From positions 62,001-126,000 of the forward strand of contig JAJPJQ010000010.1 in the NCBI GenBank assembly GCA_021324155.1: DNA of 64,000 bases, written 5' to 3'. Below are positions 46,945-64,000 of this stretch, piece after piece. Positions within the stretch are counted from its first letter, which is position 1; every line of letters begins with the position of its first letter. Source of the stretch: Pseudomonadota bacterium (GTDB lineage Bacteria > Desulfobacterota > Binatia > UBA9968). A model generated the notes under the pieces. It had not been told where the DNA came from. It saw only the letters and a list, made by a program, of their open reading frames with translations, and did no database searches. The position numbers and the translations under genes were made by a program.

Positions 46945-46978
46945 GGAAAACCCGAAACATCTTATCAAGTCGGGAATT

Positions 46979-47402: not shown

Positions 47403-49250
47403 TCACCGCCTCATTATCTTCAGGGCTTCCTCATACTGTCTCATCGCCTCTTCTTTTCTTCCCTGCGCCGCGAGGGCGCGGGCGAGCTGCTCGTGGATCT
47501 CGGCGACATCGGGCTGGAGGTGCAATGCTCGTTTGAAATAATCCTCGGCCTCTTTTGGCCGGCCTTGCTGAAGCATCACTTGGCCTATGTTGAAATAAGC
47601 CTTGGCATAGCCGGGGTCGATCCGCAGCGCCTCGTTGAAGTGGACGACGGCTTGCGGGATGTCGCCGCGGCGGGCGAGCAGGAGGCCCAGATTGTTGTGG
47701 CTGCCGGCGTCTTTCGGATCGGCCTTGAGAGCTTCCCGATATTCGTCGATCGCCTCGTCGATTTTTCCTTGCCGCGCGAGCAGACGCGCCAAATTATAGC
47801 GCGCCTCGGCGTACGCCGGATCGCGCGCGATCGCGGCGCGATACTCAGTCATCGCGCCATCGAAATCGCGCTCGGCTTCGAGGACGTTCCCCAGGTTGTA
47901 GCGTGCGATGCTCGATTCGGGAGTGATCGCGATCGTATGTCTCCACAGCGTTCCTGAATCCTGCCAAATAAAGGTCTGCTGCCAGGTCTTAAGACCGACG
48001 ATCAGCAGCAGTACCGAGCCGGAGACGAAGATTAAGTAAGGTTTGTGAATTTTTAGAATAAGCTTGTCGCAGTAAGCTCCGGCAACAAGCGCCCATGCCA
48101 GGCACGAGAGATAACTGTATCTATCGGCGACGAATTGAACGCCGCTCTGAGCTAAACCTGAGACAGGCGCCAGAAGCGCCAGATAGCATAACCATGCGGC
48201 GAAAAGGCCGGCGGCTCTTTTCCTCATCGCAAAAAGAATAGCGGTGATCGCAGCGAGCGCCATGCCACACATTGTAAATACCCAAATCCAACCGCCGGAC
48301 TGAAAGGGTACTTGATACAACGGCGATAGGTGGAACGGCGCGATCGTCTTCGAGATATAAAACATCGCAGAGTACATGGCCTGTCCGAAGCGCCGACCGA
48401 TACTGTATGCACTGACAGAAACGTACGCGCCGGCTTGTTTTTGTGCTGTTAACGCGACGGCACCGGCGATCAGGCCGAGGATTAAAAACGGTAGTTTTTC
48501 CAGCCAGACGGCACGATCACGGCGCGCGAGCCACTGCGACGTGGAAGACTGCAATCTTCGCAGCGGATAAACGTCCAGCACAACGAGAACGAAAACCAAT
48601 GTCATGCCGCTCGCCTTGGAAAGCAGCGACAGGGCGTAAAGAAATACCGACCCGATTATTTCCCGGCGTCTAGCTGCTCCGCCTTCCGTTGCGCGCAGAT
48701 AAAGTAAAATCGAAGCGAATAACAATACTCCGGAGAGCACGTCGCGGCGCTCCGTTATCCAAGCGACGGACTCGACCCGGAGCGGATGAATCGCGAAGAA
48801 GAGAGCGGCGAACGCCGCGCTCCAGGGAGAAGCAGCAGGATCGGGTCTAACAGACGATAGCCGCAGCAGACGTCGGCACACAAAGTAAAAAATAACCGAG
48901 CCGACCGCATGCAGCAGGAGATTCGTTAAATGATAGCCGAAGGGATTTAGCCCCCAGATCGAATAATCGATGCCCAATGTCAGCCAGCTGAGCGGCTGGT
49001 AGTGGCCTAGATGAAATGTCGTGAACATCCACATGATTTGATTCCAACCTAGGCCTCGATAGTTGGGATTTAGTAGGAAATTTTGCTCGTCGTCCCAATT
49101 GACGAAATTGTTTTGTAGCGCGGGGAGAAAAACTACAAAGGTAACCGCAGCGATTATGGCGGGGATTAGCAGTCTAATGCACGATCCGGCTGGAATCGGA
49201 TGGCTGACGGGCGACTTATCTTGCGCGGCTTTTTTACCTGCGGCTTTCAC
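47403..49250 (-). CDS. Polytopic membrane protein with C-terminal TPRs (TMTC-like)
   Basis: 615-aa protein: about 11-12 membrane helices (residues 25-430), then five TPR units (about 445-610: SSIARYNLGNVLEAERDFDGA-type). The first external loop contains FVNWDDEQNFLLNPNYRG, and HPLRVESVAWITERRDVLS follows helix 3. Both are hallmarks of the TMTC/GT-C-like family, related to O-mannosyltransferases. A glycosyl transfer role on periplasmic proteins is plausible, not shown. The start is GTG with no clear ribosome site. It is flanked by directly repeated modules A and B. Confidence 0.83.
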   Translation of the reverse strand: MKAAGKKAAQDKSPVSHPIPAGSCIRLLIPAIIAAVTFVVFLPALQNNFVNWDDEQNFLLNPNYRGLGWNQIMWMFTTFHLGHYQPLSWLTLGIDYSIWGLNPFGYHLTNLLLHAVGSVIFYFVCRRLLRLSSVRPDPAASPWSAAFAALFFAIHPLRVESVAWITERRDVLSGVLLFASILLYLRATEGGAARRREIIGSVFLYALSLLSKASGMTLVFVLVVLDVYPLRRLQSSTSQWLARRDRAVWLEKLPFLILGLIAGAVALTAQKQAGAYVSVSAYSIGRRFGQAMYSAMFYISKTIAPFHLSPLYQVPFQSGGWIWVFTMCGMALAAITAILFAMRKRAAGLFAAWLCYLALLAPVSGLAQSGVQFVADRYSYLSCLAWALVAGAYCDKLILKIHKPYLIFVSGSVLLLIVGLKTWQQTFIWQDSGTLWRHTIAITPESSIARYNLGNVLEAERDFDGAMTEYRAAIARDPAYAEARYNLARLLARQGKIDEAIDEYREALKADPKDAGSHNNLGLLLARRGDIPQAVVHFNEALRIDPGYAKAYFNIGQVMLQQGRPKEAEDYFKRALHLQPDVAEIHEQLARALAAQGRKEEAMRQYEEALKIMRR

Positions 49251-49331
49251 GAGCAGATAGAAAGCTGAAGCTACTATAAATTGGGAGCGTCAGACAACCC
49301 GCGGCTCTTTCGAGGATGCCGGTGGCTTGGA

Positions 49332-49515
49332 GAAGACAACGGCGCGAATACGGGTCACGGCACGCCGTGTCCTTACCTTACATGACATCGGATGGCGATG
49401 CGGGAAATGAAACAAAATTTCGTTACCCCGAAAGCCCGCCCCGAGCCTCCTCGAAGGCTCAGCACGAACGGCAATAAACTTCGTTATAGAATTGACAATT
49501 CCATTCGCCCTGAGC
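49332..49515. repeat. Repeat module B beside the TMTC-like gene
   Basis: Direct copy of module A: GAAGACAACGGCGCGAATAC, a diverged GGTCACGGCACGCCGTGTCC palindrome, AAACAAAATTTCGTTACCCC, CTCGAAGGCTCAGCACGAAC, then ATTGACAATTCCATTCG. It lies about 2.35 kb from module A in the same orientation. The whole gap 49251-49704 holds no gene. Confidence 0.75.
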
Positions 49516-49649
49516 ATGTCGAGGGCTCTGTGACCATTCTTTATCGCCCAGGAAAACGCTGCCTGCTTTACCCCCTCATTAGAAATGAGGGGAGCACAAG
49601 GACAGGAGGGGAATAGAGGGAGGCGAATTTCTCGATGGGACGTAGGTAT

Positions 49650-49675
49650 CCCCTGGGGCCTCTCGGCCCCAGGGG
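49650..49675. terminator. Strong hairpin downstream of the secreted protein gene
   Basis: 11-bp perfect arms CCCCTGGGGCC / GGCCCCAGGGG around a TCTC loop. It lies 30 bases beyond the stop of the gene at 49705. No T-tract follows on the minus strand, so it is only a possible terminator or processing signal. Confidence 0.5.
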
Positions 49676-49704
49676 TCGGGCTAACTTACTCCGTCGATCG
49701 GGAG

Positions 49705-50124
49705 TTATCTGGTAGCGGCGGTATCGATTTCGCGATGCTGGGTGACGGAGCCGAACTGATCGACCGTAAGGATGCGCATCGAACCCTTGGCGTTTTTCGC
49801 CTCGAAAGAATATGCGACCGAAGTGTAGGCGTCGCCGTCCTTGTTATAACACATCGTGTTATAGCCGCCCGTTAGAACAGGCCCCCGAGCCTTGCCCGAA
49901 CCAGCGACCGGCTGAATGACTTTATATCCGCCCTTGAGGTTTTGGTCGGCGTACTTCTGCGCCAAGCTCAGCGCTTCGGTCTCGGTTATTTTGTGTCCCG
50001 CAACATTCGCCGGCGGACAGCTTATTCCCGCTACCTGTTTGCTTTGCGCCGATGCCACACCGGACAGCGCGAAGAACACCGCTGCGACGACGACCGGCGA
50101 TAACGCTATAATTAATTTTTTCAT
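49705..50124 (-). CDS. Small secreted protein of unknown function
   Basis: 139-aa protein with a clear signal peptide (MKKLIIALSPVVVAAVFFALS, in part, cleaved near SAQS). The mature part has two cysteines (ISCPP; YNTMCYN) that could pair, and ends in a beta-rich segment (SVAYSFEAKNAKGSMRILTVDQFGSVTQHREI). ATG 50124 is chosen because GAGGAG lies 10 bases upstream; a frame from 50139 adds 5 residues. No family recognised. Confidence 0.75.
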   Translation of the reverse strand: MKKLIIALSPVVVAAVFFALSGVASAQSKQVAGISCPPANVAGHKITETEALSLAQKYADQNLKGGYKVIQPVAGSGKARGPVLTGGYNTMCYNKDGDAYTSVAYSFEAKNAKGSMRILTVDQFGSVTQHREIDTAATR

Positions 50125-50659
50125 TTCTTTTCTCCTCATAAAATTTTTTATATTCCGTTCACGTCATCTCTGCCCATCCCGGTGCCGCAATTTACGAACT
50201 GTCATTGAATCTCGGCGGACCTCTTTTTAGCGTCGCTGTATAGGTACTTTTATCGGCAGGGCCTGTGCTCCTTAATCTTTTTGGCAGCGCAGCCGCGGCG
50301 GTGCCAGCCGTATCCTGGCGTAACCGGCGCAGCTGCCGCTCAAGGCGGTCTCGTTCTGCTTGCCTGGAAGCCAATTCGCTATCCGTACATCTAAAGTCTT
50401 AGACTAAGGTCGTAGATTACGGTCATATTAGGTCGTTCCTGGGTAGAAAGTCTTAGTACGTAAATCAGCCTCCGTCAAGTGGTCATCCGAAATTAATTTT
50501 CAACGAGCAGAAGGTGGTGCCGGGGGTCGGCCGAGGGGGGACGGATGGTTTCGACGGAAAAAAGCTACCTCCGCTAACCCCCCTTATTAAGGAGGGGAAT
50601 AAGAGCAAGACACTGCTGCGAGTCCGATCCTCTCCTTACGAAGGAGGGGAAGGGGGAGG
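50125..50659. other. 535-base region without a supported gene
   Basis: Contains a palindrome CTTAGACTAAG (50398-50408) and nearby AAGTCTTAG words, then GC-poor repeats with CCCCCCTTATTAAGGAGGGG (about 50577-50597) and a second pair near 50633-50658. A 60-codon TTG-started frame (50374-50192, minus; ERDRLERQLRRLRQD) is Arg-rich and unsupported. Confidence 0.5.
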
Positions 50660-51640
50660 TCACCGACCGTACAATTTCTTCACGAACCCGCTTTGTTCGA
50701 TCTCACGCAGCAGCGACGGGTCGATGAAGTCGTTGGGATTCAGGCCCTTAGCCTGCGCGCGGCTTTTGGCGAGCTGGTCGATGATGATCTGAATCCCTTC
50801 GGGGTTGGGATAGGGCACCTCGCGGATCAGGCGCTTGGAATATTCCTCGTAGGCGGTGTTCATGATCGACACGTCGTCGAGGCGCGCGACCTTCTGCATC
50901 GTCTTGAGGCTCAACTCCTTGTTCGTCTTGAAGATGTAAATGCCTTCGAGATACGCCTTCAAAAATTTGATCGTCGCGTCGCGGTGCTCGCGCACGAAGC
51001 TCTTGCGCGAGCCGAGGCCGTGCAGCGTATAGGTCACGCCGAGATTGCTGAGATCGTAGAGTAGGTGGCCGCCCGCCTTTATCGCGAGTGTCGCGAACGG
51101 CTCGGAGATCACTGCCGCGTCGATCGCTTTTCCCTGGAGTGACGCGGCCAGCTCCGGCTCGCCGCCGATCTGGAGGATCGCCACGTCGCGGTCCGGCACG
51201 AGCCCCCAGCGCTCGAGCGCGTAGCGGATGGAGAAATCGCTCGCGCCGCCGAGCCGCGAGATGCCGACGCGCTTGCCCTTGAGCTGCGCGACCTCGCGTA
51301 GGTCGGGGGTCGAGACGATCTTGAACGTGAAGGTATTCAGCGTCGAGGTAAGGCCGACGAAGTCGGCGCCCGACATGTTCGCATTGATGTTGGCAACGCC
51401 GCCGCTGGTGAGAAAATGGATCTCGCCGGCGAGCGCTGCCTGCACGGCGCGCGAGCTGACGGGGACGTAGAGCATGTCGAGGTTGAGGCCCTGCTTTTTC
51501 CCCAAATTCAGCTCTTTCATGAGATAGAGCGGCGTCATCTGGATCGCGATCGAGGTGTAGGCGGCACGGATGCGCGCCGGCTCCTGCGCGGCGGCGGGCA
51601 GGGCGATGAGCAGCGCGATAACGATAAATAATTTTTTCAT
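50660..51640 (-). CDS. NMT1/TauA-like substrate-binding protein
   Basis: 326-aa periplasmic protein with a short signal peptide ending AAAQE. It has features like TauA/NMT1: TSIAIQMTPLYLMKELNLGKK, LTSGGVANINANMSG and LKGKRVGISRLGGASD. It is the last gene of the cupin/binding protein/enolase operon, starting 1 base after the enolase-superfamily stop. No transporter subunits are in the operon. The ligand may be the enzyme's substrate, as an inference. Confidence 0.9.
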   Translation of the reverse strand: MKKLFIVIALLIALPAAAQEPARIRAAYTSIAIQMTPLYLMKELNLGKKQGLNLDMLYVPVSSRAVQAALAGEIHFLTSGGVANINANMSGADFVGLTSTLNTFTFKIVSTPDLREVAQLKGKRVGISRLGGASDFSIRYALERWGLVPDRDVAILQIGGEPELAASLQGKAIDAAVISEPFATLAIKAGGHLLYDLSNLGVTYTLHGLGSRKSFVREHRDATIKFLKAYLEGIYIFKTNKELSLKTMQKVARLDDVSIMNTAYEEYSKRLIREVPYPNPEGIQIIIDQLAKSRAQAKGLNPNDFIDPSLLREIEQSGFVKKLYGR

Positions 51641-51641
51641 C

Positions 51642-52763
51642 TCACGCTTCTTGGCCGCTGAACGCGAAGCGCTCCAGCGCGCCTGGATCGACCTCGATGC
51701 CCAGGCCCGGCGCGTCCGGCGGCGCCATCAGGCCGTTTTTCGGCTCCAGCGGCGCGCGGAGGATCTCCGTGCGCAGCGGATTGTGCGTCATGTCGAGCTC
51801 CATGACGATCGCGTTCTTGAGCGCCGCCGAGAGGTGCAGGCTCGCGGCGAGCGCGACGCCGTCGCCCCAGGTATGCAACGAGACCGGCAGGCCGCGCGAG
51901 TCAGCCAGCGCGGCGATGCGCACGATCTCGCTGATCCCGCCGGCGCGCGCGACGTCGGGCTGTAGGATATCGACGGCCGGTCGGGCGATGAACTGCTCGA
52001 AGTCGTAGACGGTGTGGAGATTCTCGCCGAGAGCGATGGGAATTTTCGTGGACGCTTTCAGCTTCGCGTGGCTCGCGGCGTCGGCGAAGAATATCGGCTC
52101 CTCGAGCCAGCCGACGCCGAGATCGGCGAGCGCGATGGCCGCGCGCTGCGCCGTGGGCAGATCGTAACCCATGTTGGCGTCGCTCATCAGCGGGAAATTT
52201 GCGCCGACCTCCGCGCGCACCGCGCGCACGCGCTCGATGTCGCCCGCGACATCGAAACCGATCTTCATCTTGATGCCGCGGTAGCCTAATTCAGCGAGCC
52301 GCCGCGCACGCTCGACGACTTTCTTATTCTCGTCGGGATAGAGCGCGGTCGCGTAGACCTCGACGCGATCGCGCGGCTTATTCGATAGCAACTTATAGAT
52401 AGGAGCGCCTTCGACTTTGCCGCGGATGTCCCACAGCGCGACGTCGAGGCCGGAGAGCGCGACGAAGCCGATGCCGCGGAGCCCCAATTGCCGCGCGCGC
52501 GGGCCGAAGTACAGCTTCTGCCAGAGCGCGTCGATGTCGGTCGGGTCCATGCCGACGACGGCGGGTTTGACGACTTGTTCGAGTATGAAGTGGACGATTG
52601 CGCCGTTGCCCGAGCAGGAGCCGTAGCCGTGGATGCCGGCGTCGGTGTCGACCCGGACGAGCGCCGTCGTGCGCGCCTCCCGGACGCCGCTGCGGCTCGT
52701 CACCTGTCCTTCGGCAGGGATCGACGCGCGGAGGCGAATCGCCCGGACGTCGGTGATCTTCAC
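51642..52763 (-). CDS. Enolase superfamily (mandelate racemase/muconate lactonizing) enzyme
   Basis: 373-aa TIM-barrel enzyme abstracting a proton alpha to a carboxylate with Mg2+. Visible sites: KMK (K165, K167), metal ligands D195 (LMSDANMGY), E221 (WLEEP) and E247 (ALGENLH), and His297 (VSLHTWGDG) with Asp270 (LQPD) as a likely His-Asp dyad, the mandelate racemase pattern. The GTG at 52763, 5 bases after the upstream stop, is chosen; the open frame to 53042 overlaps the preceding gene and is Arg/Ala-rich. Substrate probably a hydroxy or sugar acid. Confidence 0.9.
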   Translation of the reverse strand: MKITDVRAIRLRASIPAEGQVTSRSGVREARTTALVRVDTDAGIHGYGSCSGNGAIVHFILEQVVKPAVVGMDPTDIDALWQKLYFGPRARQLGLRGIGFVALSGLDVALWDIRGKVEGAPIYKLLSNKPRDRVEVYATALYPDENKKVVERARRLAELGYRGIKMKIGFDVAGDIERVRAVRAEVGANFPLMSDANMGYDLPTAQRAAIALADLGVGWLEEPIFFADAASHAKLKASTKIPIALGENLHTVYDFEQFIARPAVDILQPDVARAGGISEIVRIAALADSRGLPVSLHTWGDGVALAASLHLSAALKNAIVMELDMTHNPLRTEILRAPLEPKNGLMAPPDAPGLGIEVDPGALERFAFSGQEA

Positions 52764-52768
52764 GGCTC

Positions 52769-53779
52769 TCAGCGGAAGTACTTGTGGTACTCGTTGTTGT
52801 AGCGGTTGTAGTCCTCGGCCGAAGCGGGCTTGACGACGAGGAGCTTCCGCCCCTCGATCAGCCGCGGCGGGTCCGGCGGCACGTCTTTGCGTACCGAGAT
52901 GCGGCTCAAGCTGCGCATCACCTTCTGCCCTTCCTGCGAGAGGACGAAATCGATGAAGAGCTTCCCGGCCGCCGGATGCGGCTGCTTGGCAGTGACGCCG
53001 ATCACGATCGAGTAGACGAAGTGCGGGTCGAGCGCGACCCACTCTATCGGCGCGCCGACTTTTTTATATTCCTCGACGCTCGTCGGATACTGCGAGACGA
53101 CCAGCGGAAACTCGCCCGCGACGAGGAGCTGGCCGGTGATCGTATTGCCGTCGCGCGCCTGCACGTCCTGTCGGCTCAGGGCTTCCATGTACTTCTTCCC
53201 CTTTTCCTCGCCCATCATCTGGAGCATCGCGACGTACCACTCGGTCTTGTTCAAGTCCATGCCCATCTTGCCCTTCCACTTGGGCTGGAGCAGCTCGTCG
53301 TAGCTCTTCGGCACCTCGGCCGGCTTCACCATGCGCGTGTTGTAGGCCATCGTCATGGCATTGACGTAGGCCGCGGTCCAGTAGCCGTCCTTGTCCTTGA
53401 AGTCGTTCCCGTAGATGCCGCGCTCGGGCGAGGCGTATTTGCCGATGAGCCCGCGCTGGATAAGCGTCATCATGGGAAAGATGCTCGACTGGTACACGTC
53501 GGGGAGGTACTGGCCGGCTTTGACTTCGGTCAAGTAGCGCGCGAGGAGCTTATCCTTGCCGGCGCGGAAGTATTCGAACTGAATGAAGGGATATTTTTTC
53601 TCGAATGCCGCTTTAAAGGCGTTCGCGTCCGCCGCCGAGTAAGCGGCGTAGACGACGAGCTTCCCTTCTTTCTTGGCTTCTTCGATCAGCTTCGGGTCCG
53701 GATGCGTCTGAGCGTTCAAAAGCGACGGCAGCAGAAGTCCGGCGCAGAGAAAAAACAGAATGTTGCGGCGCAGCCTCAT
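52769..53779 (-). CDS. Iron/spermidine-type extracellular binding protein (family 1)
   Basis: 336-aa periplasmic protein with signal peptide (MRLRRNILFFLCAGLLLPSLLNAQ, in part). It resembles Fe3+/AfuA-type SBPs: EAKKEGKLVVYAAYSAADANAF, LPDVYQSS, AYNTRMV and HPAAGKLFIDFVLS. The ATG overlaps the cupin stop as ATGA, so it is coupled. It is followed by the enolase-superfamily enzyme. No ABC permease or ATPase is present. Confidence 0.9.
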   Translation of the reverse strand: MRLRRNILFFLCAGLLLPSLLNAQTHPDPKLIEEAKKEGKLVVYAAYSAADANAFKAAFEKKYPFIQFEYFRAGKDKLLARYLTEVKAGQYLPDVYQSSIFPMMTLIQRGLIGKYASPERGIYGNDFKDKDGYWTAAYVNAMTMAYNTRMVKPAEVPKSYDELLQPKWKGKMGMDLNKTEWYVAMLQMMGEEKGKKYMEALSRQDVQARDGNTITGQLLVAGEFPLVVSQYPTSVEEYKKVGAPIEWVALDPHFVYSIVIGVTAKQPHPAAGKLFIDFVLSQEGQKVMRSLSRISVRKDVPPDPPRLIEGRKLLVVKPASAEDYNRYNNEYHKYFR

Positions 53780-54210
53780 CGTCCGAGCTTCCATGTTTTG
53801 CCGGGGATCGTCTCGCCGTCGACGTTGATGTATTCCGTCGAATCGTCGGAGCGCGTCCGGCCGTCCGCCTCGATGCGCGTGACTTTCGGCTTTCCCTTGC
53901 GCGCGGAGAAGCGCAGCAGCACGAGCGGACCGCTGCCGCTGTTCGCGAACCAATAATACCAGCCCTCGGGCAGCATGATGCCCTGGCCTTTTTTCAAGAC
54001 GGTCGGCTTCTCGTCCTTGTCGTAGAACGTCGCCTCGCCGTCCATGACGACGAACGTGTGGTCCTCGCCGGGATGCGTGTGCAGCTTGTTCTTTCTTCCC
54101 GGCGTGTAGTAGTTGAGCCCGACCGAGACGAGGTCGGTGCGCGAAAGCAACATGTGGCTCCGGCCGCCGGTCAGGTCCGGCGTCGACAATTCGAAGACGT
54201 GCGCGTCCAT
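53776..54210 (-). CDS. Small cupin-domain protein
   Basis: 144-aa single cupin barrel. Metal motif 1 reads TPGRKNKLHTHPGEDHTFVV, with two His and a Glu. Motif 2 is LPEGWYYWFANSGSGP, where the usual His is replaced, so only a partial site exists. Ribosome site AAGGAGG precedes the ATG. First gene of the four-gene operon running down to 50660. Confidence 0.88.
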   Translation of the reverse strand: MDAHVFELSTPDLTGGRSHMLLSRTDLVSVGLNYYTPGRKNKLHTHPGEDHTFVVMDGEATFYDKDEKPTVLKKGQGIMLPEGWYYWFANSGSGPLVLLRFSARKGKPKVTRIEADGRTRSDDSTEYINVDGETIPGKTWKLGR

Positions 54211-54330
54211 GGAAAGCCCTCCTTGTCAACAGTCCGTTTCGTCAATTAGATGAAGCACCGCCCGCTGTCAAGCAAGCGTTGCGCACGCCCGGCGAGCTGT
54301 GATTAGAGAAAAGAAAAAGGAGAGAACCTT

Positions 54331-55236
54331 ATGCCCAACGTCGGCTTCTGCATGGTGAACCCGCAGCCCGAGATCACGCCGGGCCACGTCGTCAACGTCG
54401 CCCGCAAATGCGAGGAAATCGGGCTCCACTCGATGTGGGCGCTCGACCGCGTGGTTTATGACAACCTCGAGCCGCTCACGCTGCTCGCCGCCGCGGCGGC
54501 GGTAACATCGAAGATTCGCCTCGGCACGTCGGTGCTGCTTGCCGCCTTGCGCTCGCCGGCGCTGCTCGCCAAGAGCGTCGCGACGCTCGATTTCATCTCT
54601 AACGGGCGCGTCACGCTCGGCATCGGCTTCGGCAGCCGCCAGAACGACTTCACCTCGGCGGCCATTCCGTGGGAGCACCGCGGCAGCCGCGCCGAGGAGC
54701 AGGTCGCGATCATGAAGCGGCTGTGGTCGGGCGAAAGCGTGACGCACAAAGGCAAATATTTTCAGCTCGAGGACGTGACTGTCGGACCGCGGCCGGTGCA
54801 GCAGCCCCACCCGCCGATCTGGACCGGCGGCAGCGCCGAAGCCGTACTCAAGCGCGCCGGGCGCATCGCCGACGGCTACATCTGCGGCAGTTCGGCGATC
54901 CCGCAGTTCCCCGCGATCTGGGAAAAGATCGCCGGCTACGCCAAGGCCGCGGGGCGCGACCCGAATAAAATCTCTAAGGCGGGCCTCACCTTCATGGCGA
55001 TCGACAACGACAAGCAGAAGGCGATCGACGCCTGCGCGGCGTATCTGAAGCGCTACTACGGCTCGGTGAGATTGGATATCGAGAAGACCTTCGTCGTCGG
55101 CCCGCCGGAAGCGTGCGCGGAGCGAATCCGCGCCGCGTTCGCCAACGGTTTGGAAACGCTGATCGTCGGCGGCGCGGTGCCCGATATCAGACAGCTGGAT
55201 TTGTTGGGCGAGAAGGTGCTGCCGCTGGTCAAGTAA
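54331..55236 (+). CDS. LLM-class flavin-dependent oxidoreductase
   Basis: 301-aa luciferase-like TIM-barrel (FMN or F420). RLGTSVLLAALRSPALLAKSVATLDF, GIGFGSRQNDF, and HPPIWTGGSAEAVLKRAG are family segments near the phosphate-binding and active-site regions. The ATG follows AAGGAGAG. It diverges from the cupin operon across a short gap. The reductase partner and substrate are unknown. Confidence 0.9.
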   Translation: MPNVGFCMVNPQPEITPGHVVNVARKCEEIGLHSMWALDRVVYDNLEPLTLLAAAAAVTSKIRLGTSVLLAALRSPALLAKSVATLDFISNGRVTLGIGFGSRQNDFTSAAIPWEHRGSRAEEQVAIMKRLWSGESVTHKGKYFQLEDVTVGPRPVQQPHPPIWTGGSAEAVLKRAGRIADGYICGSSAIPQFPAIWEKIAGYAKAAGRDPNKISKAGLTFMAIDNDKQKAIDACAAYLKRYYGSVRLDIEKTFVVGPPEACAERIRAAFANGLETLIVGGAVPDIRQLDLLGEKVLPLVK

Positions 55237-55239
55237 AAC

Positions 55240-55447
55240 AGTTTCAAGTTTCGGGTTTCGAGTGGACCTCCCCGTCGGCCTCTCATTTGCCCCCTTCAGT
55301 ACGGCCGCGCTTCGCGCCTTCTACTCAGGGCCAACGGATTGCAGGTGAGCGATCTCATCAAGTTCCGACCGTCCCGAGTAAGCCGAAGGCTGTATCGAGG
55401 GATATGGCCGCGCTTCCTGCCTCTAGCTGAAACTTGAAACCAGAAAC
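55240..55447. repeat. Paired GTTTCG/GAAAC repeat
   Basis: Left arm GTTTCAAGTTTCGGGTTTCG (55241-55260) and right arm GAAACTTGAAACCAGAAAC (55429-55447) flank about 165 bases between converging genes. Member of the atp-region repeat family. Confidence 0.65.
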
Positions 55448-55454
55448 TATTTTT

Positions 55455-56315
55455 TTACCGCGTCACCACCAAAATCGTCCCTACCACCGTACACAGCGCG
55501 CCGATGACGACGCGGCGCGTGATCGATTCGAGATCCCTCAAAAACAGCGCCGACATGATCAGCGAGAACACGGGGTTGCTCGACGTGAGCGGCTCGACGA
55601 CGACTACGTCGCCGTAGCTGAGCGCGTGAAAGACCGAGAGCGTGGCCGAGGTGTTCGCCAGGCCCGCGGCGAAGAACCACGGCGCGTTCGAGCGCTTGAG
55701 CTTGAGCGCCTTCGTCCCGCCTTGCGAGGCGAGCAGCGAGGCCGAGAAGAGAAACGCGGTCGAGGCCGTGAACGCGGCCGCCATGAACGGCCGGTTGACC
55801 TCCATCAGGCCGAGCTTGCGGAGGTTGGTCGAGATGCCGAAGGCGAGAGCCGCGATGACGGGAAAGACGATGTCGGCGCGCCGCCACTCCGTCTTGCCGC
55901 CGGCGCGGGAGGCCGAGAGGATGGCGATCCCCGCGATGACGAGCACCGTGCCGAGAAAATTCTGCGGCTTCCATTGCTCGCCTAAAATGAACACTGCGAG
56001 GATGGAGGCGAACATCGGCGACGCGTTGGAGATCGGCACCGAGCGCGCGACGCCGATCCTCTCGATGCCGACGTAGGTGAGCGTGCGCCCGATGCCCGGC
56101 GCGAAGATGCCGGCGGCGAGAAAATAAAAGACCGCCGGCTGCCAGAACGCGCCGGGCGGCGTCGTAAAGTAAGCCGACGCCGCCAGGATGCAGGCGGTCA
56201 TGCCGAGCGAGACGAACGAGCCGGTAACGGCGTTCGACGTCACGAGGCCGCGGCGGATCAGGATGTGCGAGGTGGCGAAAAAAAACGCCGCCTGCAGCGC
56301 GAAGTATTCGGCCAT
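55455..56315 (-). CDS. EamA/DMT-family transporter
   Basis: 286-aa inner-membrane protein with about ten helices in two EamA halves. Typical segments: LTYVGIERIGVARSVPISNASPMFASI and YGDVVVVEPLTSSNPVFSLIMSALFL, from the repeated halves. It follows a double-cupin gene by 33 bases on the same strand and ends the EutA/cupin cluster. It probably exports a small metabolite; substrate unknown. Confidence 0.88.
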   Translation of the reverse strand: MAEYFALQAAFFFATSHILIRRGLVTSNAVTGSFVSLGMTACILAASAYFTTPPGAFWQPAVFYFLAAGIFAPGIGRTLTYVGIERIGVARSVPISNASPMFASILAVFILGEQWKPQNFLGTVLVIAGIAILSASRAGGKTEWRRADIVFPVIAALAFGISTNLRKLGLMEVNRPFMAAAFTASTAFLFSASLLASQGGTKALKLKRSNAPWFFAAGLANTSATLSVFHALSYGDVVVVEPLTSSNPVFSLIMSALFLRDLESITRRVVIGALCTVVGTILVVTR

Positions 56316-56348
56316 ACAGGCGGCGTTAATCGTTGCCGAGCGCGGGAC

Positions 56349-57485
56349 CTATTGCTTGCCCATGCTCTTCGACCATTCGTAATCGCGGTTGGAGTAGGCC
56401 TCGGCGGGCATGATCGACTTGACCCCGCGTTTGGCGAGCTCTTCCTCGAACTTCTTCCGGATGAACGGATCCTCGTCCGGGTATTCGATCTGGTCTTTCG
56501 CGCGGTCCTCGATCTTTTCCGCGTGGCCGTGGAACTGCATCGGCGGATGGAGCGCCAGATAGCGCGCGGGGCCGCCGCCGGCGTTGAAGTGCTGGTGAAA
56601 CCACTTGTTCGGCGGCACGAGCATGCTGCACTCGTGCCACGGGCAGACGATCTTCTCCTTGCCTTCCTCCCACATGATCGAGTAGCCCTCGCCGGCCGGA
56701 ATGACGATCGCGCGGCCCGGGCCGTGGCGATGCGCCTTCTTATACGTAAGCGGCGAGAACACCGACATGTGCGCCGATACTTCGGAGTTGGGGAACTGGA
56801 TGTAGACGCTCTTGCCGCCGGCGCCGCGGCGCTCGTTGGCGTCGAGCTTCGACCACGCCTTCATGTCGGGGAAGAAGTTGCCGTACCAGTAGTAGCGGAG
56901 CCCGAGCGCCTCGTCGACCTGATCCATGTTGATCATCTTGGCTTCGGAGTAATACTCCTGCTGCTCGCTCATATCGCCGGGCGTCGAGAGCGGATTGTTG
57001 AAGAAATAGTCCGGGTCCGGCACCGCCGAGAGGCCGAGCGGGAGATAGCTGTAGTGGAGCAGGCGCACGTTCTTGTCGCCCTGCATGTTGCTGAAGGTGT
57101 GGTGCATGCCGTGCGGGATCACGAACATGCTGTGCTGCTGCCACTCGAAGCTCTTTTTCACGCTGCTGCCGTCGTACCAGACGGTCGTGAGGCCGCGGCC
57201 GTCGATCACGTAGACGACCTCGTCGAGCGCGAACTTGAGCGGCTTGGTCGTCTCGCCCGCGGGCACTTCGCTCAAGCGCGTCGAGCTGACGCCCTCCTGC
57301 CCCAACAACTGGATGAACGCGGTGTTGACGCCGCGCTCTTCCCACCAGCCCAGCTTCGCGGTGCGCAGGTCGTCGATGAAAAAGCCGGTGATGATCGGCA
57401 CGCCGGTCGATTCCATCCAGTAGTCGTAAGTGAACTTCTTGCTCCACATCTGGCGTGAGGGCTTGAAGGGTTTTTTCTCTGCCAT
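56349..57485 (-). CDS. Double-cupin protein, paralogue 1
   Basis: 378-aa bicupin. The first cupin (about 70-160) has EVPAGETTKPLKFALDEVVYVIDGRG and the His-rich QQHSMFVIPHGMHHTF; the second (about 235-330) has KKAHRHGPGRAIVIPAGEGYS and HECSMLVPPNKWFHQHF, with many potential metal ligands. The C-terminal tail (YPDEDPFIRKKFEEELAKRG) is charged. AAGGAGA precedes the ATG, 18 bases after the eutA-like stop. Its paralogue lies at 59132. Could be a dioxygenase or a sensor for a metal-bound ligand. Confidence 0.85.
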   Translation of the reverse strand: MAEKKPFKPSRQMWSKKFTYDYWMESTGVPIITGFFIDDLRTAKLGWWEERGVNTAFIQLLGQEGVSSTRLSEVPAGETTKPLKFALDEVVYVIDGRGLTTVWYDGSSVKKSFEWQQHSMFVIPHGMHHTFSNMQGDKNVRLLHYSYLPLGLSAVPDPDYFFNNPLSTPGDMSEQQEYYSEAKMINMDQVDEALGLRYYWYGNFFPDMKAWSKLDANERRGAGGKSVYIQFPNSEVSAHMSVFSPLTYKKAHRHGPGRAIVIPAGEGYSIMWEEGKEKIVCPWHECSMLVPPNKWFHQHFNAGGGPARYLALHPPMQFHGHAEKIEDRAKDQIEYPDEDPFIRKKFEEELAKRGVKSIMPAEAYSNRDYEWSKSMGKQ

Positions 57486-57503
57486 GGTCGTTCTCCTTAT
57501 GAA

Positions 57504-59015
57504 TCAGTCGAGCTTGGCGCCGGGAAACATCAGCGACTTGACGGTAACGGGAATGACTTCGGTGATGCCCATCGGCTCGCCGATGTCGATGTAGTCGGGG
57601 TCGCCGACCTCGATGCCGTCGATGGCGATGATCTCGCGGTCGAGCTTCAATTCCTCTTTGAGAATGCCGCCGAGCGACTTCGCCACGTCGAGGTCGAGCG
57701 CGAGGTAGAGCGGCGCGCGCTCGTTCGCCGTCGCCGCGCAGACCGCCGCGACGCCTTCGGCGATCGCGCGGATCGTCTTGTAGTCGAGCGCGCCTTCGAG
57801 CGAGAGCGAGAGCGCGAGCCCTTCGCCCCAGCAGGTCAGGTCGAACTTGGCGAGCGCCTGCTTGAGCGCTTCGAGCGCGGGCCGGTCTTCCTTGAGCGTC
57901 GCGCGGATGACTTTCAAGCCGTGCACCGGCAGCACCGACGCGTCGGAGATATAGCTCGTGTTGCCGCTCGCCTGGACGGTGTACTCACCGGCGCCGATGA
58001 CGGTCGCGCGAATGCCTTCGGCGGGCTCGCGCACGAGGTCTTTCTTCGTGAGCGTCTTCAGATACTCGCGCATGTGCTTGCCGAGAATCGGGCCGACGTC
58101 GCCGTAGGAGTTGCTGTCGCGGTCGTAGACGTGCTCGGAGACGCCGCCGGAGAAAACGATATGATCGATCTGCTGGAGGCCGCGGTAGTGCGTGAACGGC
58201 GGCGTGACCATCAATTGCTTCGCGAGCGGCGTTTTGGGCTCGCCCTCGATCAGCTCGGCCAGCACCTTCGCCATCAACCCGGCGAACTCTTCTTTCTGCT
58301 TGTTGGCGATCTTTTTCCCGAGCTCGACCTTGTGGCCGAGCTCGCCCATGAGAATATGGCCGGCGTCCTCGATGCGCGTGACGACATCTTTCTCATCGAA
58401 GGCGATGAGGCGCGCGCCGATATTGACCGAGGCGGTCTGCGTCACCGTGCCGCTCTCGACCAGCGAGAACTTCGTCGTGCCGCCGCCCATGTCGACGTTG
58501 AGCACGGTCTTGCGCTCTGTCTTCGAGAGATCGACCGCGCCGCAGCCGTAGGCGGCGAGCAGCGCCTCGTGGTTGTGGCCCGCGGCGGCGCAGATGAACT
58601 TGCCGGAGAATTTCGCGAAGTATTCGACGATCGGCTGCGCGTTCTCCTTCTTCAGCGCCTCGCCCGTGATGATCACGGCGCCGGTGTCGATCTCGTCGGG
58701 CCGGAGCCCGGCTTTTTGGTATGCGTCTTCGATGAAGCGCTTGACCTTCTCGACGTCGATCGACGTGCCCGAGAGGTACGGCGTGAGCATGATGTTGGAG
58801 CGAAAGATCACGCGCCGGTCGGTGACCTTGAAGCGGCCGGAGAGCGACGCGCCCTCGCGGCGCAGCGTCAGCTGGGAGAAAACCAGGTGCGAGGTCGAAG
58901 AGCCGATATCGATGCCCACGCTCTTCAGCGTGAACATCTCCAAACCTTCGATATCTTCGACTACCGCGTCGGGTGGTATCTCGAAATGCTCGTGGTCTTC
59001 GTCGAGGTCGTGCAT
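57504..59015 (-). CDS. EutA-like ethanolamine ammonia-lyase reactivating ATPase
   Basis: 503-aa protein of the EutA family, actin/Hsp70-type ATPases that reactivate B12-dependent ethanolamine ammonia-lyase by releasing damaged cofactor. Phosphate-1 loop VGIDIGSSTSHLVF (33-46) and phosphate-2 VDMGGGTTKFS (174-184) are intact, and VIITGEALKKENAQ and VFSGGVSEHVY are EutA-typical. No eutB, eutC or microcompartment gene is in the window. It lies between two double-cupin paralogues on the same strand, so it may serve another B12 enzyme. Confidence 0.85.
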   Translation of the reverse strand: MHDLDEDHEHFEIPPDAVVEDIEGLEMFTLKSVGIDIGSSTSHLVFSQLTLRREGASLSGRFKVTDRRVIFRSNIMLTPYLSGTSIDVEKVKRFIEDAYQKAGLRPDEIDTGAVIITGEALKKENAQPIVEYFAKFSGKFICAAAGHNHEALLAAYGCGAVDLSKTERKTVLNVDMGGGTTKFSLVESGTVTQTASVNIGARLIAFDEKDVVTRIEDAGHILMGELGHKVELGKKIANKQKEEFAGLMAKVLAELIEGEPKTPLAKQLMVTPPFTHYRGLQQIDHIVFSGGVSEHVYDRDSNSYGDVGPILGKHMREYLKTLTKKDLVREPAEGIRATVIGAGEYTVQASGNTSYISDASVLPVHGLKVIRATLKEDRPALEALKQALAKFDLTCWGEGLALSLSLEGALDYKTIRAIAEGVAAVCAATANERAPLYLALDLDVAKSLGGILKEELKLDREIIAIDGIEVGDPDYIDIGEPMGITEVIPVTVKSLMFPGAKLD

Positions 59016-59020
59016 AAAAT

Positions 59021-59128
59021 AAGTTTCGGGTTGCTAGTTTCGGGTTGCGAGTCCGGAGGCCGACGGTATCAATAATCGGTTCATCTCGAGTCCGCTCTTC
59101 TTACTCGAAACTCGGAACTCGAAACTCT
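59021..59128. repeat. Paired GTTTCG/CGAAAC repeat in the eutA-cupin gap
   Basis: Left arm GTTTCGGGTTGCTAGTTTCG (from about 59023), right arm CTCGAAACTCGGAACTCG (59104-59121), with a 40-base centre. It fills the gap between the double-cupin gene at 59132 and the EutA-like gene. Confidence 0.75.
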
Positions 59129-59131
59129 TTC

Positions 59132-60262
59132 TCATTGTTTACCCATCGCCTTCGACCACTCGAAGTTTCTATCCTTATAAGCCTGATCGGGCATGAGCGA
59201 GGTGAGGCCGCGCTTGCCGAGCTCCTCCTCGAATTTGTTGCGGATGAAAGGATCCTCGTCGGGATACTCGATCTGGTCCTTGGCGCGGTCTTCGACCTTT
59301 TCCGCGTGGCCGTAGAACTGCATCGGCGAGTGGAGCGCCAAGTAGCGCGCGGGCGTCGCGCCGGCGTTGAAGTGCTGGTGGAACCACTTGTTCGGCGGCA
59401 CGAGCATGCTGCACTCGTGCCACGGCGCGACGACTTTTTCCTTGCCCTCTTCCCACATGATCGAATAGCCCTCGCCGGCCGGGATGACGATCACGCGCCC
59501 CGGACCGTGGCGGTGGGCTTTCTTATAGGTGCGGGAGTCGAATACCGACATGTGCGCGAAGACTTCGCAGTTGGGAAAAAGAATGTAGACGCTGCGCCCG
59601 CCGGCGCCGCGCTTCGCGTTGGCGTCGAGCTTGTCCCACGCGCGCATGTCGGGAAAGAAGTTGCCGTACCAATAGACGCGCCGCCCTTTCGGGTCGGCGC
59701 CTTCGGGCAGATTAACCGCTTTGGCTTCCGAGTAATAGGTCTCGTGCTCGGCGAGCTCGTTCGGGCTCTCGTACGGGCTGTTGAAGAAAAATTCCGGGTC
59801 GGAGACCGCCGAGAGCGCGAGCGGCAGGTAGCTGTAATGGAGCAGCCGCACCGGCTTGTCGCCCTGCATGTTGCTGAACTGATGGTGCGTGCCGCGCGGC
59901 ACGAGGAACATGCTGTGCTGCTGCCACTCGAAGCTCTTCTTGCCGCTGCGCTCGTACCAGATATTGGTGACGCCGCGTCCGGAGACGACGTAGACGACCT
60001 CGTCGAGCGCGAACTTGAACGGCTTGGTCGTCCCGCCCGGGGGGATCTCGCTCACGCGCGCCGAAGTGACGCCCTCCTGCCCGGCGAGCTGGATGAAGGC
60101 GCTCATGCACTGGCGCTCTTCCCACCAGCCGAGCTCGACGGTGCGCAGGTCTGGGATGAAGTAGCCGCGATGGATCGGGATGCCCGTGCTCTCCATCCAG
60201 TAGTCGTAGGAGAAGAGCTTGCTCCACATCTGCCTTTGCGGCTTGAAGGCGGGCTTGGCCAT
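59132..60262 (-). CDS. Double-cupin protein, paralogue 2
   Basis: 376-aa bicupin closely similar to the one at 56349 over its length (MWSKLFSYDYWMESTGIPI; KKAHRHGPGRVIVIPAGEGYS; HECSMLVPPNKWFHQHF; YPDEDPFIRNKFEEELGKRG). It begins 9 bases after the atpC stop and has no obvious ribosome-binding site, so it may depend on transcript and translation from the atp operon. Same catalytic uncertainty as its paralogue. Confidence 0.85.
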   Translation of the reverse strand: MAKPAFKPQRQMWSKLFSYDYWMESTGIPIHRGYFIPDLRTVELGWWEERQCMSAFIQLAGQEGVTSARVSEIPPGGTTKPFKFALDEVVYVVSGRGVTNIWYERSGKKSFEWQQHSMFLVPRGTHHQFSNMQGDKPVRLLHYSYLPLALSAVSDPEFFFNSPYESPNELAEHETYYSEAKAVNLPEGADPKGRRVYWYGNFFPDMRAWDKLDANAKRGAGGRSVYILFPNCEVFAHMSVFDSRTYKKAHRHGPGRVIVIPAGEGYSIMWEEGKEKVVAPWHECSMLVPPNKWFHQHFNAGATPARYLALHSPMQFYGHAEKVEDRAKDQIEYPDEDPFIRNKFEEELGKRGLTSLMPDQAYKDRNFEWSKAMGKQ

Positions 60263-60271
60263 ACTACTTTG

Positions 60272-60688
60272 TTATCTTCTCGTTTCCGGCCTTGCAACCT
60301 CGATGCGCGCCGTCGCGCGGTGGAGAGCCGCCTCGCACAGCGCGAATTCGCGGTCGTCGATGTTGAGCGCGGCCATGTTCTTCTCGGCCTGCTCTTTGGC
60401 GCGCTGCGCGCGCGCGACGTCGATCTCTTCGGCGAACTCGGCCGCGTCGGCGAGCACCGTCATGACGTTGTCGAGCACCTCGGCGTAGCCGCCGGCGATG
60501 GCGAGGCGCGTCACGCGCCCGCCCTGCTTGTACGAGAGCTCGCCGGGCTGCAGCAGCGTGAGAAAAGCGATGTGGTTCGGCAAGACGCCGAACTGCCCGA
60601 GCACGCCCGGCGCGGTCACCTCATCGACCTCCTCGTCGACGACGAGACGGGTCGGCGTTACGATGCGGAGTTGGATTTTGTCAGCCAT
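60272..60688 (-). CDS. atpC: ATP synthase epsilon subunit
   Basis: 138-aa F1 central-stalk subunit. The N-terminal beta-sandwich (KIQLRIVTPTRLVVDEEVDEVTAPGVLGQFGVLPNH, in part) and C-terminal two-helix hairpin (EEIDVARAQRAKEQAEK) are both present, so it is the full inhibitory form. Last of the atpA-G-D-C run, as usual. Confidence 0.95.
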   Translation of the reverse strand: MADKIQLRIVTPTRLVVDEEVDEVTAPGVLGQFGVLPNHIAFLTLLQPGELSYKQGGRVTRLAIAGGYAEVLDNVMTVLADAAEFAEEIDVARAQRAKEQAEKNMAALNIDDREFALCEAALHRATARIEVARPETRR

Positions 60689-60698
60689 GCTTCAAAAT

Positions 60699-60798
60699 AG
60701 TTCGGGTTCCGGGTTTCGAGTTTCGGACGATTTTATAATCAGTTACGGCTGATTGATGTCGCTCCGTCGCGAACGCCGAAACTAGAAACGCTCAAACT
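60699..60798. repeat. Paired repeat between atpD and atpC
   Basis: Arms TTCGGGTTCCGGGTTTCGAG (60700-60720) and GCCGAAACTAGAAACGCTC (60776-60794). Same family as the other atp-region gaps. Confidence 0.75.
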
Positions 60799-60801
60799 TT
60801 T

Positions 60802-62247
<1,446 letters not shown>

Positions 62248-62250
62248 CTA

Positions 62251-62357
62251 CAGTTTCGATTTTTAGTTTCGCGTTTCGAGAAAGAGCGCCGGTACTTCTT
62301 TCCGTCGACGAGCCTCAGACCTCCGGGCTCGAAACTCGCAACCCGCAACTCGAAACT
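62251..62357. repeat. Paired repeat between atpG and atpD
   Basis: Left arm CAGTTTCGATTTTTAGTTTCG (62251-62271), continued by CGTTTCGAG; right arm CTCGAAACTCGCAACCCGC (62328-62346), then AACTCGAAAC. It fills nearly the whole gap. Confidence 0.75.
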
Positions 62358-62359
62358 TT

Positions 62360-63220
62360 TTACTTCAACGCCTCCGCCGTGCCGACGATTTCCATCAGCT
62401 CGCGCGTGATCGACGCCTGGCGCGCGCGGTTCATCTGCAGCGTCAGGCTGCCCATCATCTTCGACGCGTTCGACGTCGCCGAATCCATCGCGGTCATGCG
62501 CGCGCCGTGCTCGCTCGCCGCGGCTTCGAGCACCGCGCGGTGGATCGCGACCTGCACGACCCGCGGCAAAAGTCCCGCGAGCAGCGCTTCGACGTTGGGC
62601 TCGATGAGAAATTCCGTCATCTGCTCGGGCTTTCGCTCCTCCGGGAGCGCGACGGGCAGCAGCTTCTCAACCGTCGGCACCTGCGACAGCGCCGAGCGAA
62701 AGCGGCTGTAAATCAAATAGACCGCGTCGGTCTCGCCGCGGATGAACCGGCCGATCGCCTTTTCGGCGATCTCGCCCGCCAGTTCGTCGCCGGCGCGCGC
62801 GAGAAAATTGAGATAGCGTTCGCCGATCGTCGCGCGCCGGCGGCGGAAATAATCCACGCCCTTGCGCCCGACCAGAATCAGGTTGATCTCCTTGCCGCCG
62901 CCTTCGCGGCGGATGAACGCCTCGGTCGCCCGGATCAAATTCGCGTTGTAGCCGCCGGCGAGGCCGCGGTCGGACGTGAGCAGGATGAGATCGATTTTCT
63001 TCTCGTCCCGGACCCCGAGCAGCGGGTGCGCCTCGCGCGCGACGCGCGCGACCAGATTCTTGAACAGTTCCGACATCTTCTCGGCGTAAGGGCGCGCCGC
63101 GACCGCCGCCTCCTGCGCGCGGCGGAGCTTCGCCGCCGCCACCATCTTCATCGCCTTGGTGATCTGCTGCGTGTTGCGGATCGAGCTGATGCGCTTTCTT
63201 ATCGCCTTGAGCGTCGCCAT
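62360..63220 (-). CDS. atpG: ATP synthase gamma subunit
   Basis: 286-aa rotor shaft subunit. N-terminal RISSIRNTQQITKAMKMVAAAKLRRAQ (in part) and C-terminal SEHGARMTAMDSATSNASKM are the coiled-coil ends that turn in the alpha/beta ring; TSDRGLAGGYNANL is family-typical. Normal length. Confidence 0.97.
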   Translation of the reverse strand: MATLKAIRKRISSIRNTQQITKAMKMVAAAKLRRAQEAAVAARPYAEKMSELFKNLVARVAREAHPLLGVRDEKKIDLILLTSDRGLAGGYNANLIRATEAFIRREGGGKEINLILVGRKGVDYFRRRRATIGERYLNFLARAGDELAGEIAEKAIGRFIRGETDAVYLIYSRFRSALSQVPTVEKLLPVALPEERKPEQMTEFLIEPNVEALLAGLLPRVVQVAIHRAVLEAAASEHGARMTAMDSATSNASKMMGSLTLQMNRARQASITRELMEIVGTAEALK

Positions 63221-63233
63221 TTAAATGAAATAA

Positions 63234-63338
63234 AGTTTCGCGTTTCTAGTTTCGGGTTTCGAGACAGAGCGTCCGGTTATTCTCGCGTCCCTTCACTAAA
63301 TCCCGGTCATCCGAACTCGGAACCCGAAACTCGAAACT
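63234..63338. repeat. Paired repeat between atpA and atpG
   Basis: Left arm AGTTTCGCGTTTCTAGTTTCG (from about 63234), right arm ACTCGGAACCCGAAACTCG (63315-63333). It reaches the last bases of atpA. Confidence 0.75.
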
Positions 63339-64000
63339 AAGCCTTAAACGTCCCTTTGAATTCTTCCAGCACCTTTTTGATCCGCTCGCGCAGCTCGTTG
63401 TCGAGCTCACGCTTCTTCAAGATGTCCGCGAAGAGCTGCGCGTGGCGCGATTCGACGAACGCGTAAAGCTCCTGCTCGTATTTCTTGAGCGCGGCCGCCG
63501 GCAGATCGTCGACAAAGCCGTTCGTGCCGGCGAAGATGATCAGGATCTGCTTCTCGACCGGCAGCGGCTCGTACTGTCCCTGCTTCAATAGTTCGACCAG
63601 CCGGCTGCCGCGGTTGAGCTGCCGCTGCGTCGCCTGGTCCAAATCGGATCCGAACTGCGCGAACGCCGCCATCTCGCGGTATTGCGCGAGCTCCAGTCGG
63701 AGCGTGCCGGCGACCTGCTTCATCGCCTTGATCTGCGCGTTGCCGCCGACGCGCGAGACCGAGATGCCGACGTTGATCGCGGGCCGCACGCCGGAATAAA
63801 AGAGATCGCTTTCGAGAAAGATCTGCCCGTCCGTGATCGAGATGACGTTGGTCGGGATATACGCCGAGACGTCGCCCGCCTGCGTCTCGATGATCGGCAG
63901 CGCGGTCAACGAGCCGCCGCCGCGCGCGTCGGACATCTTGGCCGCGCGCTCAAGCAGGCGCGAATGGAGATAAAAGACGTCGCCGGGATACGCCTCGCGG
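63337..64000 (-). CDS. atpA: ATP synthase alpha subunit, 5' part outside the window
   Basis: C-terminal 220 residues of the F1 alpha subunit; the frame is open to base 64000 ([27 protein letters not shown], in part), which shows the gene continues beyond the window. [11 protein letters not shown] and [18 protein letters not shown] are alpha-specific. Its upstream neighbours atpH/atpF would lie beyond the edge. Confidence 0.97.

Follow-up and report, generated by a model that had tools for sequence, protein, structure and literature searches.

The window, as we call the whole stretch of 64,000 nucleotides analysed here (positions 62,001 to 126,000 of contig JAJPJQ010000010.1, assembly GCA_021324155.1), carries a gene for a EutA-like protein, a relative of the reactivating factor of ethanolamine ammonia-lyase (EutBC), and this gene stands between two genes for double-cupin proteins (bicupins). 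The pairing of EutA-like gene and bicupin is conserved across several phyla, the ATPase motifs of the EutA-like proteins are intact, most of these proteins begin with a His-rich tail, the bicupins keep a cluster of conserved histidines, and in one subclade nickel genes lie close by. We posit that the EutA-like ATPase loads or restores the metal ion of its partner bicupin, a reading to which we assign a probability of roughly 0.45 and which would explain together the pairing, the correlated divergence of the two partners, the tails and the nickel genes. The features concerned are the following.

60272-60688, minus strand: atpC (ATP synthase epsilon), first gene of the run, directly upstream of bicupin A
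59132-60262, minus strand: bicupin A, 376 amino acids (aa), predicted metalloprotein with a gentisate dioxygenase-like fold
59372-59515, minus strand: C-terminal cupin His site of bicupin A (His250, His252, His295, His297), codons checked
57504-59015, minus strand: EutA-like ASKHA ATPase, 503 aa, PF06277 E 7e-124
58986-59015, minus strand: N-terminal tail MHDLDEDHEH of the EutA-like protein, HypA-like MH[DE] plus HxH, candidate metal-binding motif
58470-58472, minus strand: Lys182 in the phosphate-2 motif of the EutA-like protein, subfamily-diagnostic residue
56349-57485, minus strand: bicupin B, 378 aa, paralogue of bicupin A
55455-56315, minus strand: EamA/DMT-family transporter, PF00892 E 4e-29, final gene of the run

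Conserved pairing of EutA-like genes and bicupins

Reference genomes were scanned with an alignment of the source genome's four EutA-like proteins alone, so that the loci were not chosen by their cupins, and the best 80 of 478 loci were taken. Adding the window and three more loci from its genome brings the set to 96 EutA-like genes, all of which, contig-end ones included, entered the pairing count. By record titles and tree labels, the loci belong to Binatota/'Deltaproteobacteria', Chloroflexota, Alpha- and Betaproteobacteria, Actinomycetota, Bacillota (Alicyclobacillus), Armatimonadota and others. A bicupin lies on the same strand within 400 bp of 59 of the 96 genes and on the opposite strand in 4, with a further 8 genes having one within 5 kb and another 5 within 10 kb, so that 76 of 96 have a bicupin within 10 kb. 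Neither EutB nor EutC stands beside any EutA-like gene of this kind in the loci scanned (0/96), and EutB had no match in 48 of 50 genomes carrying a EutA-like gene of this clade (genome completeness not stated). In a plasmid collection, bicupins occurred in four records, the same four that head the list of EutA-like matches (Sinorhizobium, Phyllobacterium), and on three other annotated plasmids that were inspected, canonical EutA adjoins EutB and EutC. The sequence-only reading had remarked on the missing eutBC and proposed a cupin protein partnered by a reactivating-type ATPase; the survey bears out a cupin link conserved across genomes, and no eutBC was seen in any locus scanned, nor any EutB match in the source genome. 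In the open-access literature, judged by titles and abstract openings and with most subscription papers and all bioRxiv preprints outside this scope, no EutA-bicupin pair was found described.

Across three samples of 99, 61 and 150 genomes, the EutA-like gene and the bicupin are present or absent together. Among 99 genomes of the window's own phylum both are confined to the window's genome; 84 of the 99 gave nominal EutA matches, which outside that genome were all below 35 bits, short and of FtsA/MreB type, and were left uncounted. In the family of Aromatoleum toluclasticum (61 genomes) the two genes occur in the same two genomes, with copy numbers of 3 and 3 and of 4 and 4 (one bicupin counted is cut by a contig end), and a third genome has a lone EutA beside EutH and no bicupin. 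In the third sample, 150 genomes from the order to which a Comamonadaceae genome belongs, the two genes again coincide in two genomes, each with two EutA-like and three bicupin matches, and two other EutA lie beside EutB in bicupin-free genomes. Since the sample centres were picked for carrying the pair, only G154 and G349 are independent positives, and the second and third samples overlap by at least one genome; the absences are thus the stronger part of this evidence, read at a strict threshold (E 1e-15 or 1e-20) that distant bicupins could escape.

Evolutionarily, the two partners diverge together: over 54 adjacent pairs the distance matrices of EutA-like proteins and bicupins correlate with r 0.757, a value reached by 0 of 2000 permutations (highest 0.13). 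At six loci with two pairs, the nearest relatives of a EutA-like protein and of its bicupin fall in the same locus or the same EutA-like subclade, the exception to this pattern being L050, where a single bicupin lies between two EutA-like genes and is counted twice. Occurrence in several phyla, co-presence and correlated divergence strongly support a conserved partnership, in which the two proteins may be in direct contact.

The source genome itself (4.8 Mb, 53 contigs, completeness rating 98%) contains four full EutA-like genes, in the window and on contigs C42, C12 and C8, and had no match to EutB. The copies on C42 and C12 each have a bicupin alongside, and the copy on C8 has a metallo-beta-lactamase-fold cluster gene in its place. 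A fifth EutA match, on contig C34, was short (33 bits) and was taken as FtsA and left uncounted, its neighbours being read by eye, with no family search, as ftsZ and mur genes. On C42 the pair follows genes that resemble those of coenzyme F420 biosynthesis by eye and by a CofD profile match (L017 4472-13038), and L093 and L106 likewise have CofD in the vicinity of EutA-like genes. Bicupins form a strongly expanded family within this single genome, with 27 matches, a few of them short pieces, and at least 20 by a strict profile (20 of 69 candidates scored). Several of the unpaired ones lie beside solute-binding proteins, as read by eye, and eight of their neighbours were assigned by Pfam: two Rieske oxygenases, four UbiD decarboxylases, one LigB-type dioxygenase and one TENA/haem-oxygenase-type protein.

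The ATPase, its tails and the histidine site of the bicupin

The window's EutA-like protein matches PF06277 over its full length (positions 3-474 of 475), and it falls short of each of the four EutA equivalog cut-offs listed in NCBIfam (368 bits where 598 are required, 282 against 769, 259 against 952 and 229 against 799). In a quick maximum-likelihood tree with long branches flagged, from which L063 was omitted and to which one Phyllobacterium row was added, the 96 EutA-like proteins are separated from 5 canonical EutA with an approximate likelihood-ratio (SH-aLRT) support of 100. The nucleotide motifs of the ASKHA fold are invariant or near-invariant among them, with Lys182 in 96/96 where 8/8 canonical EutA have Asn, Gln348 in 96/96 versus 0/8, and Cys142 in 93% versus 0/8 (Val or Ile); their alignment holds only one near-invariant Cys. 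Structurally, the predicted model (predicted local distance difference test, pLDDT, 86.5) has the ASKHA fold and is close to Ppx/GppA, to HgdC-type activators and to FtsA, matching the activator of 2-hydroxyisocaproyl-CoA dehydratase (4ehu) at Z 14.9 and component A (1hux) at Z 14.3. Profile searches returned EutA and ASKHA families only, including a weak similarity to Hydantoinase_A (PF01968, E 9e-5, just below cut-off) and no match to PF02492, the P-loop GTPase domain of the G3E metallochaperones (HypB, UreG, CobW), and PDB searches with the EutA-like protein and the bicupin gave nothing close by sequence and weak hits at most by profile. As modelled, the protein has a nucleotide-hydrolase fold, one feature expected of a nucleoside triphosphatase (NTPase) metallochaperone, with putative hydrolysis.

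The tails were counted in 100 EutA-like proteins, left from 104 rows after three pattern failures and one row cut by a contig end, with L063 (cut) and L127 (the same gene as L097) excluded beforehand; the rows share ancestry, and the counts are not independent events. At least three His within the 45 residues preceding the core were found in 89 of the 100 and in 0/8 canonical EutA, against a background of 11% of 827 other locus proteins, the windows being not fully alike (45 pre-core residues regardless of the true start, versus residues 1-45 of called proteins at least 200 aa long). A start codon followed by His and then Asp or Glu occurs in 55/100 EutA-like genes (2 of the 55 use TTG and may be false starts), in 0/8 canonical EutA and in 5/817 other genes in a 60-codon window, and a C-terminal end with at least four His in 25 residues in 21/100 and 0/8. 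Several members of a bicupin-free clade considered below (L016 9403-11178 on C8; L056-L059, L061) also have a His-rich C-terminus. HypA is described as binding nickel through an N-terminal MHE, by way of the terminal amine, His2 and Glu3, in the portion of PMC7055735 drawn on here. To judge by their residues, the tails resemble the metal-binding sequences of NTPase metallochaperones, and they are predicted to bind metal.

Genes of nickel metabolism were scanned in loci L016-L122, the window excluded. NikR, CobW-type GTPases and the nickel/cobalt transporter NicO are among the families that accompany the EutA-like loci. In one subclade, 8 of 15 loci carry NicO near the EutA-like gene, versus 2 of 68 loci elsewhere, one of them weak (Fisher p 6e-6, for rows that share ancestry), and NikR and CobW, in 4 loci each, are all in this subclade, most members of which have long His tails. 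Three of the eight NicO-bearing loci are close relatives, and the rest come from Alpha- and Betaproteobacteria and Bacillota. As background, NicO had 43 matches in 50 genomes, from which fewer than one would be expected, by estimate, in the 1.5 Mb of loci.

Turning to the partner, Cupin_2 matches are weak (bicupin A 35.3 bits, bicupin B 26.4, cut-off 27.2), as are the matches of a PDB profile search, the best being gentisate dioxygenase 3bu7 (E 1e-8). The model of bicupin A (pLDDT 90.7) has 3bu7 as its best PDB match (Z 21.2 over 272 residues, root-mean-square deviation 4.4), followed by 2phd (Z 20.6). His250, His252, His295 and His297 of bicupin A, in the C-terminal cupin, are invariant across 41 aligned bicupins and have counterparts in bicupin B (His252, His254, His297, His299), and the N-terminal cupin of the same 41 shows no invariant His and no conserved HxH. 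The site is equally kept away from EutA-like genes, with His250, His252 and His295 at 100% in 59 EutA-adjacent and 20 other bicupins and His297 at 98% and 100%, and it is therefore not special to paired bicupins. The bicupin is not EutQ, the cupin encoded in canonical eut operons: at E 1e-3 none of the loci scanned gave a EutQ match. At L132 (15531-18362), and also at L074, L089, L097, L100, L105 and L111, mostly of the nickel-gene subclade, two shorter cupin genes lie beside a full bicupin, with which they possibly make up a hetero-oligomeric cupin set.

The proposed metal supply and the rival explanations

Under the mechanism that we propose, the bicupin would be a metalloprotein with its working site in the C-terminal His cluster, and the EutA-like protein would be its dedicated ATPase. 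The His/Asp-rich tail would capture a divalent metal ion, putatively nickel in at least one subclade and nickel, cobalt or another first-row metal in the window; the ATPase would then dock onto apo- or mis-metalated bicupin in a physical complex, and ATP binding and hydrolysis would open the site, expel an ion that is wrong or oxidised and put the correct one in its place. The analogue for such a cycle would be canonical EutA opening ethanolamine ammonia-lyase to exchange a damaged cofactor, and, by this analogy, moving the cofactor-swap work of EutA to a metal site may be the smallest change of function that fits. From its fold and neighbours, the bicupin itself would most likely act on an organic acid, perhaps an aromatic one, in a step that depends on oxygen or is a decarboxylation. 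Taken further, and with rather less confidence than even odds would allow, these proteins may form a new class of metallochaperone, ASKHA ATPases misannotated as EutA that load or repair single metal ions in bicupins by means of an N-terminal, nickel-type MH[DE]...HxH hook evolved independently of HypA, and with relatives that serve, for example, metallo-beta-lactamase-fold proteins.

Several observations weigh against metal supply to bicupins. The scanned locus DNA holds no bicupin for 20 of the 96 EutA-like genes, and 10 of these 20 form one clade, so that the ATPase is not tied to bicupins alone; in six genes of this clade (the source genome's own on C8, L056-L059 and L061) a neighbour has the metallo-beta-lactamase fold and is perhaps another metalloprotein client. 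The other 10 are scattered in the tree; a second bicupin search found none in L037, L046, L047, L085, L096, L098 and L110, and one weak match in L067. Conversely, the source genome has more than 20 bicupins and 4 EutA-like genes, and most bicupins, having no EutA-like neighbour, manage without an adjacent partner. The nickel genes are confined to one subclade, where they could serve a different enzyme, and no member of these gene clusters was found in positions 46000-64000 of the window. Buffering of zinc or other metals is another role open to His-rich tails, and 11 of 100 EutA-like proteins, including the clade of the C42 copy, have fewer than three His there. Finally, in the two genomes that do carry EutB, no EutA turned up in the DNA surrounding it (13 kb for G012 and, with a contig end, 8 kb for G027), so that the EutA-like protein might serve EutBC there.

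This last point leads to the alternative that the protein reactivates a B12 enzyme, mostly one other than ethanolamine ammonia-lyase, with the bicupins as mere pathway neighbours. The sequence-only reading had likewise entertained repair of another B12 enzyme, for which full-length EutA homology speaks, as does the removal of damaged cobalamin by canonical EutA (described in the excerpt of PMC5821096 used here), and service to EutB is conceivable in the two genomes just named. In the source genome, where that reading would have looked for other B12 enzymes, EutB had no match and B12-binding domains lie above cut-off at four places elsewhere, which keeps some room for the idea. Nevertheless, the searches for EutB, EutC and B12-binding domains yielded no link to the EutA-like genes, EutB being matched in only 2 of 50 genomes and EutB/C in none of the loci, and a separate clade with a changed nucleotide motif, whose divergence correlates with that of the bicupin, makes B12 repair very improbable in our judgement. 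A different use of ATP would be electron transfer in the manner of HgdC/BcrAD-type activators, reducing an oxidised metal centre of the bicupin. The matches of the model to 4ehu and 1hux would suit this, as would the conservation of Cys142, which is Val or Ile in canonical EutA. In activators of this type, however, two Cys from each subunit bind a 4Fe-4S cluster, whereas the EutA-like proteins have a single near-invariant Cys, and many neighbours (Rieske, LigB) suggest an oxygen-using metabolism, so we regard such an activator as improbable.

The two proteins could also share the catalysis, the EutA-like one phosphorylating or activating a substrate with ATP and the bicupin finishing the reaction, an arrangement known from ASKHA subunits of the hydantoinase/oxoprolinase type and their partners. 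The 1:1 gene numbers in the two Aromatoleum-family genomes, the sub-threshold resemblance to Hydantoinase_A and the replacement of Asn by Lys182, which could mean an altered phosphoryl chemistry, all fit such a division of labour. It would leave the His-rich tails and nickel genes unexplained, though; most source-genome bicupins have no adjacent ATPase, and beside six genes of a single clade a metallo-beta-lactamase-fold neighbour takes the bicupin's place. We consider it unlikely. Somewhat less likely again is that one mobile catabolic pathway includes both genes, which would then be linked with no direct contact in function. A patchy distribution and neighbours that vary between loci (Rieske oxygenases, UbiD decarboxylases, solute-binding proteins) would fit a mobile pathway, but the pair persists while other neighbours change, even next to ATP synthase genes, and the partners diverge together.

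Gene order in the window and comparison with known systems

The run atpC, bicupin A, EutA-like gene, bicupin B and EamA occupies a single strand from 60688 to 55455, with gaps of 9 bp between atpC and bicupin A and then of 116, 18 and 33 bp, and the two bicupins share 74% identity. Coordinates and profiles confirm what had been noted from the sequence, namely a EutA-like gene between two close bicupin paralogues, with EamA after it and all downstream of atpC. As a possible system, this set survives in part: the bicupin link is conserved, and EamA and atpC were seen adjoining it only in the window's own subclade. In 9 loci including the window, an atpC-family gene (cluster 14) immediately precedes the bicupin or EutA-like gene, and the EamA gene (cluster 22) recurs in 5 further loci, of which L036, L039, L042 and L043 belong to the window's subclade. 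Within 55000-61000 of the window, a search for promoter-like sites found none and a terminator scan found 10 candidates, against a shuffle mean of 5.5.

A few further neighbours recur. A few kb away from the run, the window has a separate single-cupin gene (Cupin_2; 53776-54210, minus strand) next to one for a solute-binding protein. Solute-binding-type proteins, by eye without a signal peptide, are frequent neighbours of EutA-like genes in 19 loci (cluster 2; L112, L071, L049 and others) and presumably resemble 4,5-dihydroxyphthalate decarboxylase. A family of about 104 aa lies near EutA-like genes at L049 (2847-3158), L050, L052, L089, L092, L117 and L118; its L052 member, the one in which a CxCC ending was read, has no Pfam or NCBIfam match.

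Were the EutA-like protein to supply metal, one more ATPase fold would join the proteins that place metal ions in enzymes, a client of it would be assigned in a large bicupin family, functionally blank and matched more than 20 times in a single genome, and how cupins acquire the right metal could be tested in a two-gene system. It would also bear on annotation, as a public Phyllobacterium record labels a gene of this clade 'ethanolamine ammonia-lyase reactivating factor', which points to a B12 pathway; no sign of one was found in the Phyllobacterium stretch inspected.

Among known systems, the bicupin shares its double-cupin fold with gentisate and salicylate 1,2-dioxygenases (3bu7, 2phd) at 11-15% identity in structural alignment, and differs from them in that its conserved His cluster is in the C-terminal cupin. 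The three-His iron site of those dioxygenases we take to lie in the N-terminal cupin, where the bicupins examined have no invariant His. The top Foldseek match of the bicupin is MncA, the cyanobacterial manganese cupin (2vqa) on which protein metalation has been studied, at 11-12% identity. Its metal is determined by where it folds, according to the title of 2vqa and the part of PMC11742986 consulted, which makes the choice of metal a known problem for cupins; unlike the bicupin here, MncA has no ATPase partner named in those sources. As for the ATPase, HypB, UreG, CooC and HypA combine an NTPase, a metal-binding motif and a dedicated client, as far as the consulted text of a review presents them (PMC9164220), and the same combination is proposed here, with the difference that HypB, UreG and CooC are P-loop proteins and the EutA-like protein has an actin/Hsp70 fold. 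In the same text, the NTPase metallochaperones comprise P-loop proteins, P1B transporters and heat-shock-fold proteins, the last being those for Fe-S clusters only, such as HscA, so that an ASKHA protein handling single ions would be new among the classes reviewed there (PMC9164220). Closest of all is canonical EutA, which, in the excerpt available to us, strips a damaged cobalamin or cofactor and lets a fresh one bind (PMC5821096). The EutA-like protein is homologous to it over the entire length and retains its ASKHA-type nucleotide motifs, and differs in having Lys182, Gln348 and mostly Cys142 where canonical EutA has Asn, Ser/Glu/Asp and Val/Ile, in forming a separate clade, in its His-rich tails, and in standing with a bicupin in the place of EutBC.

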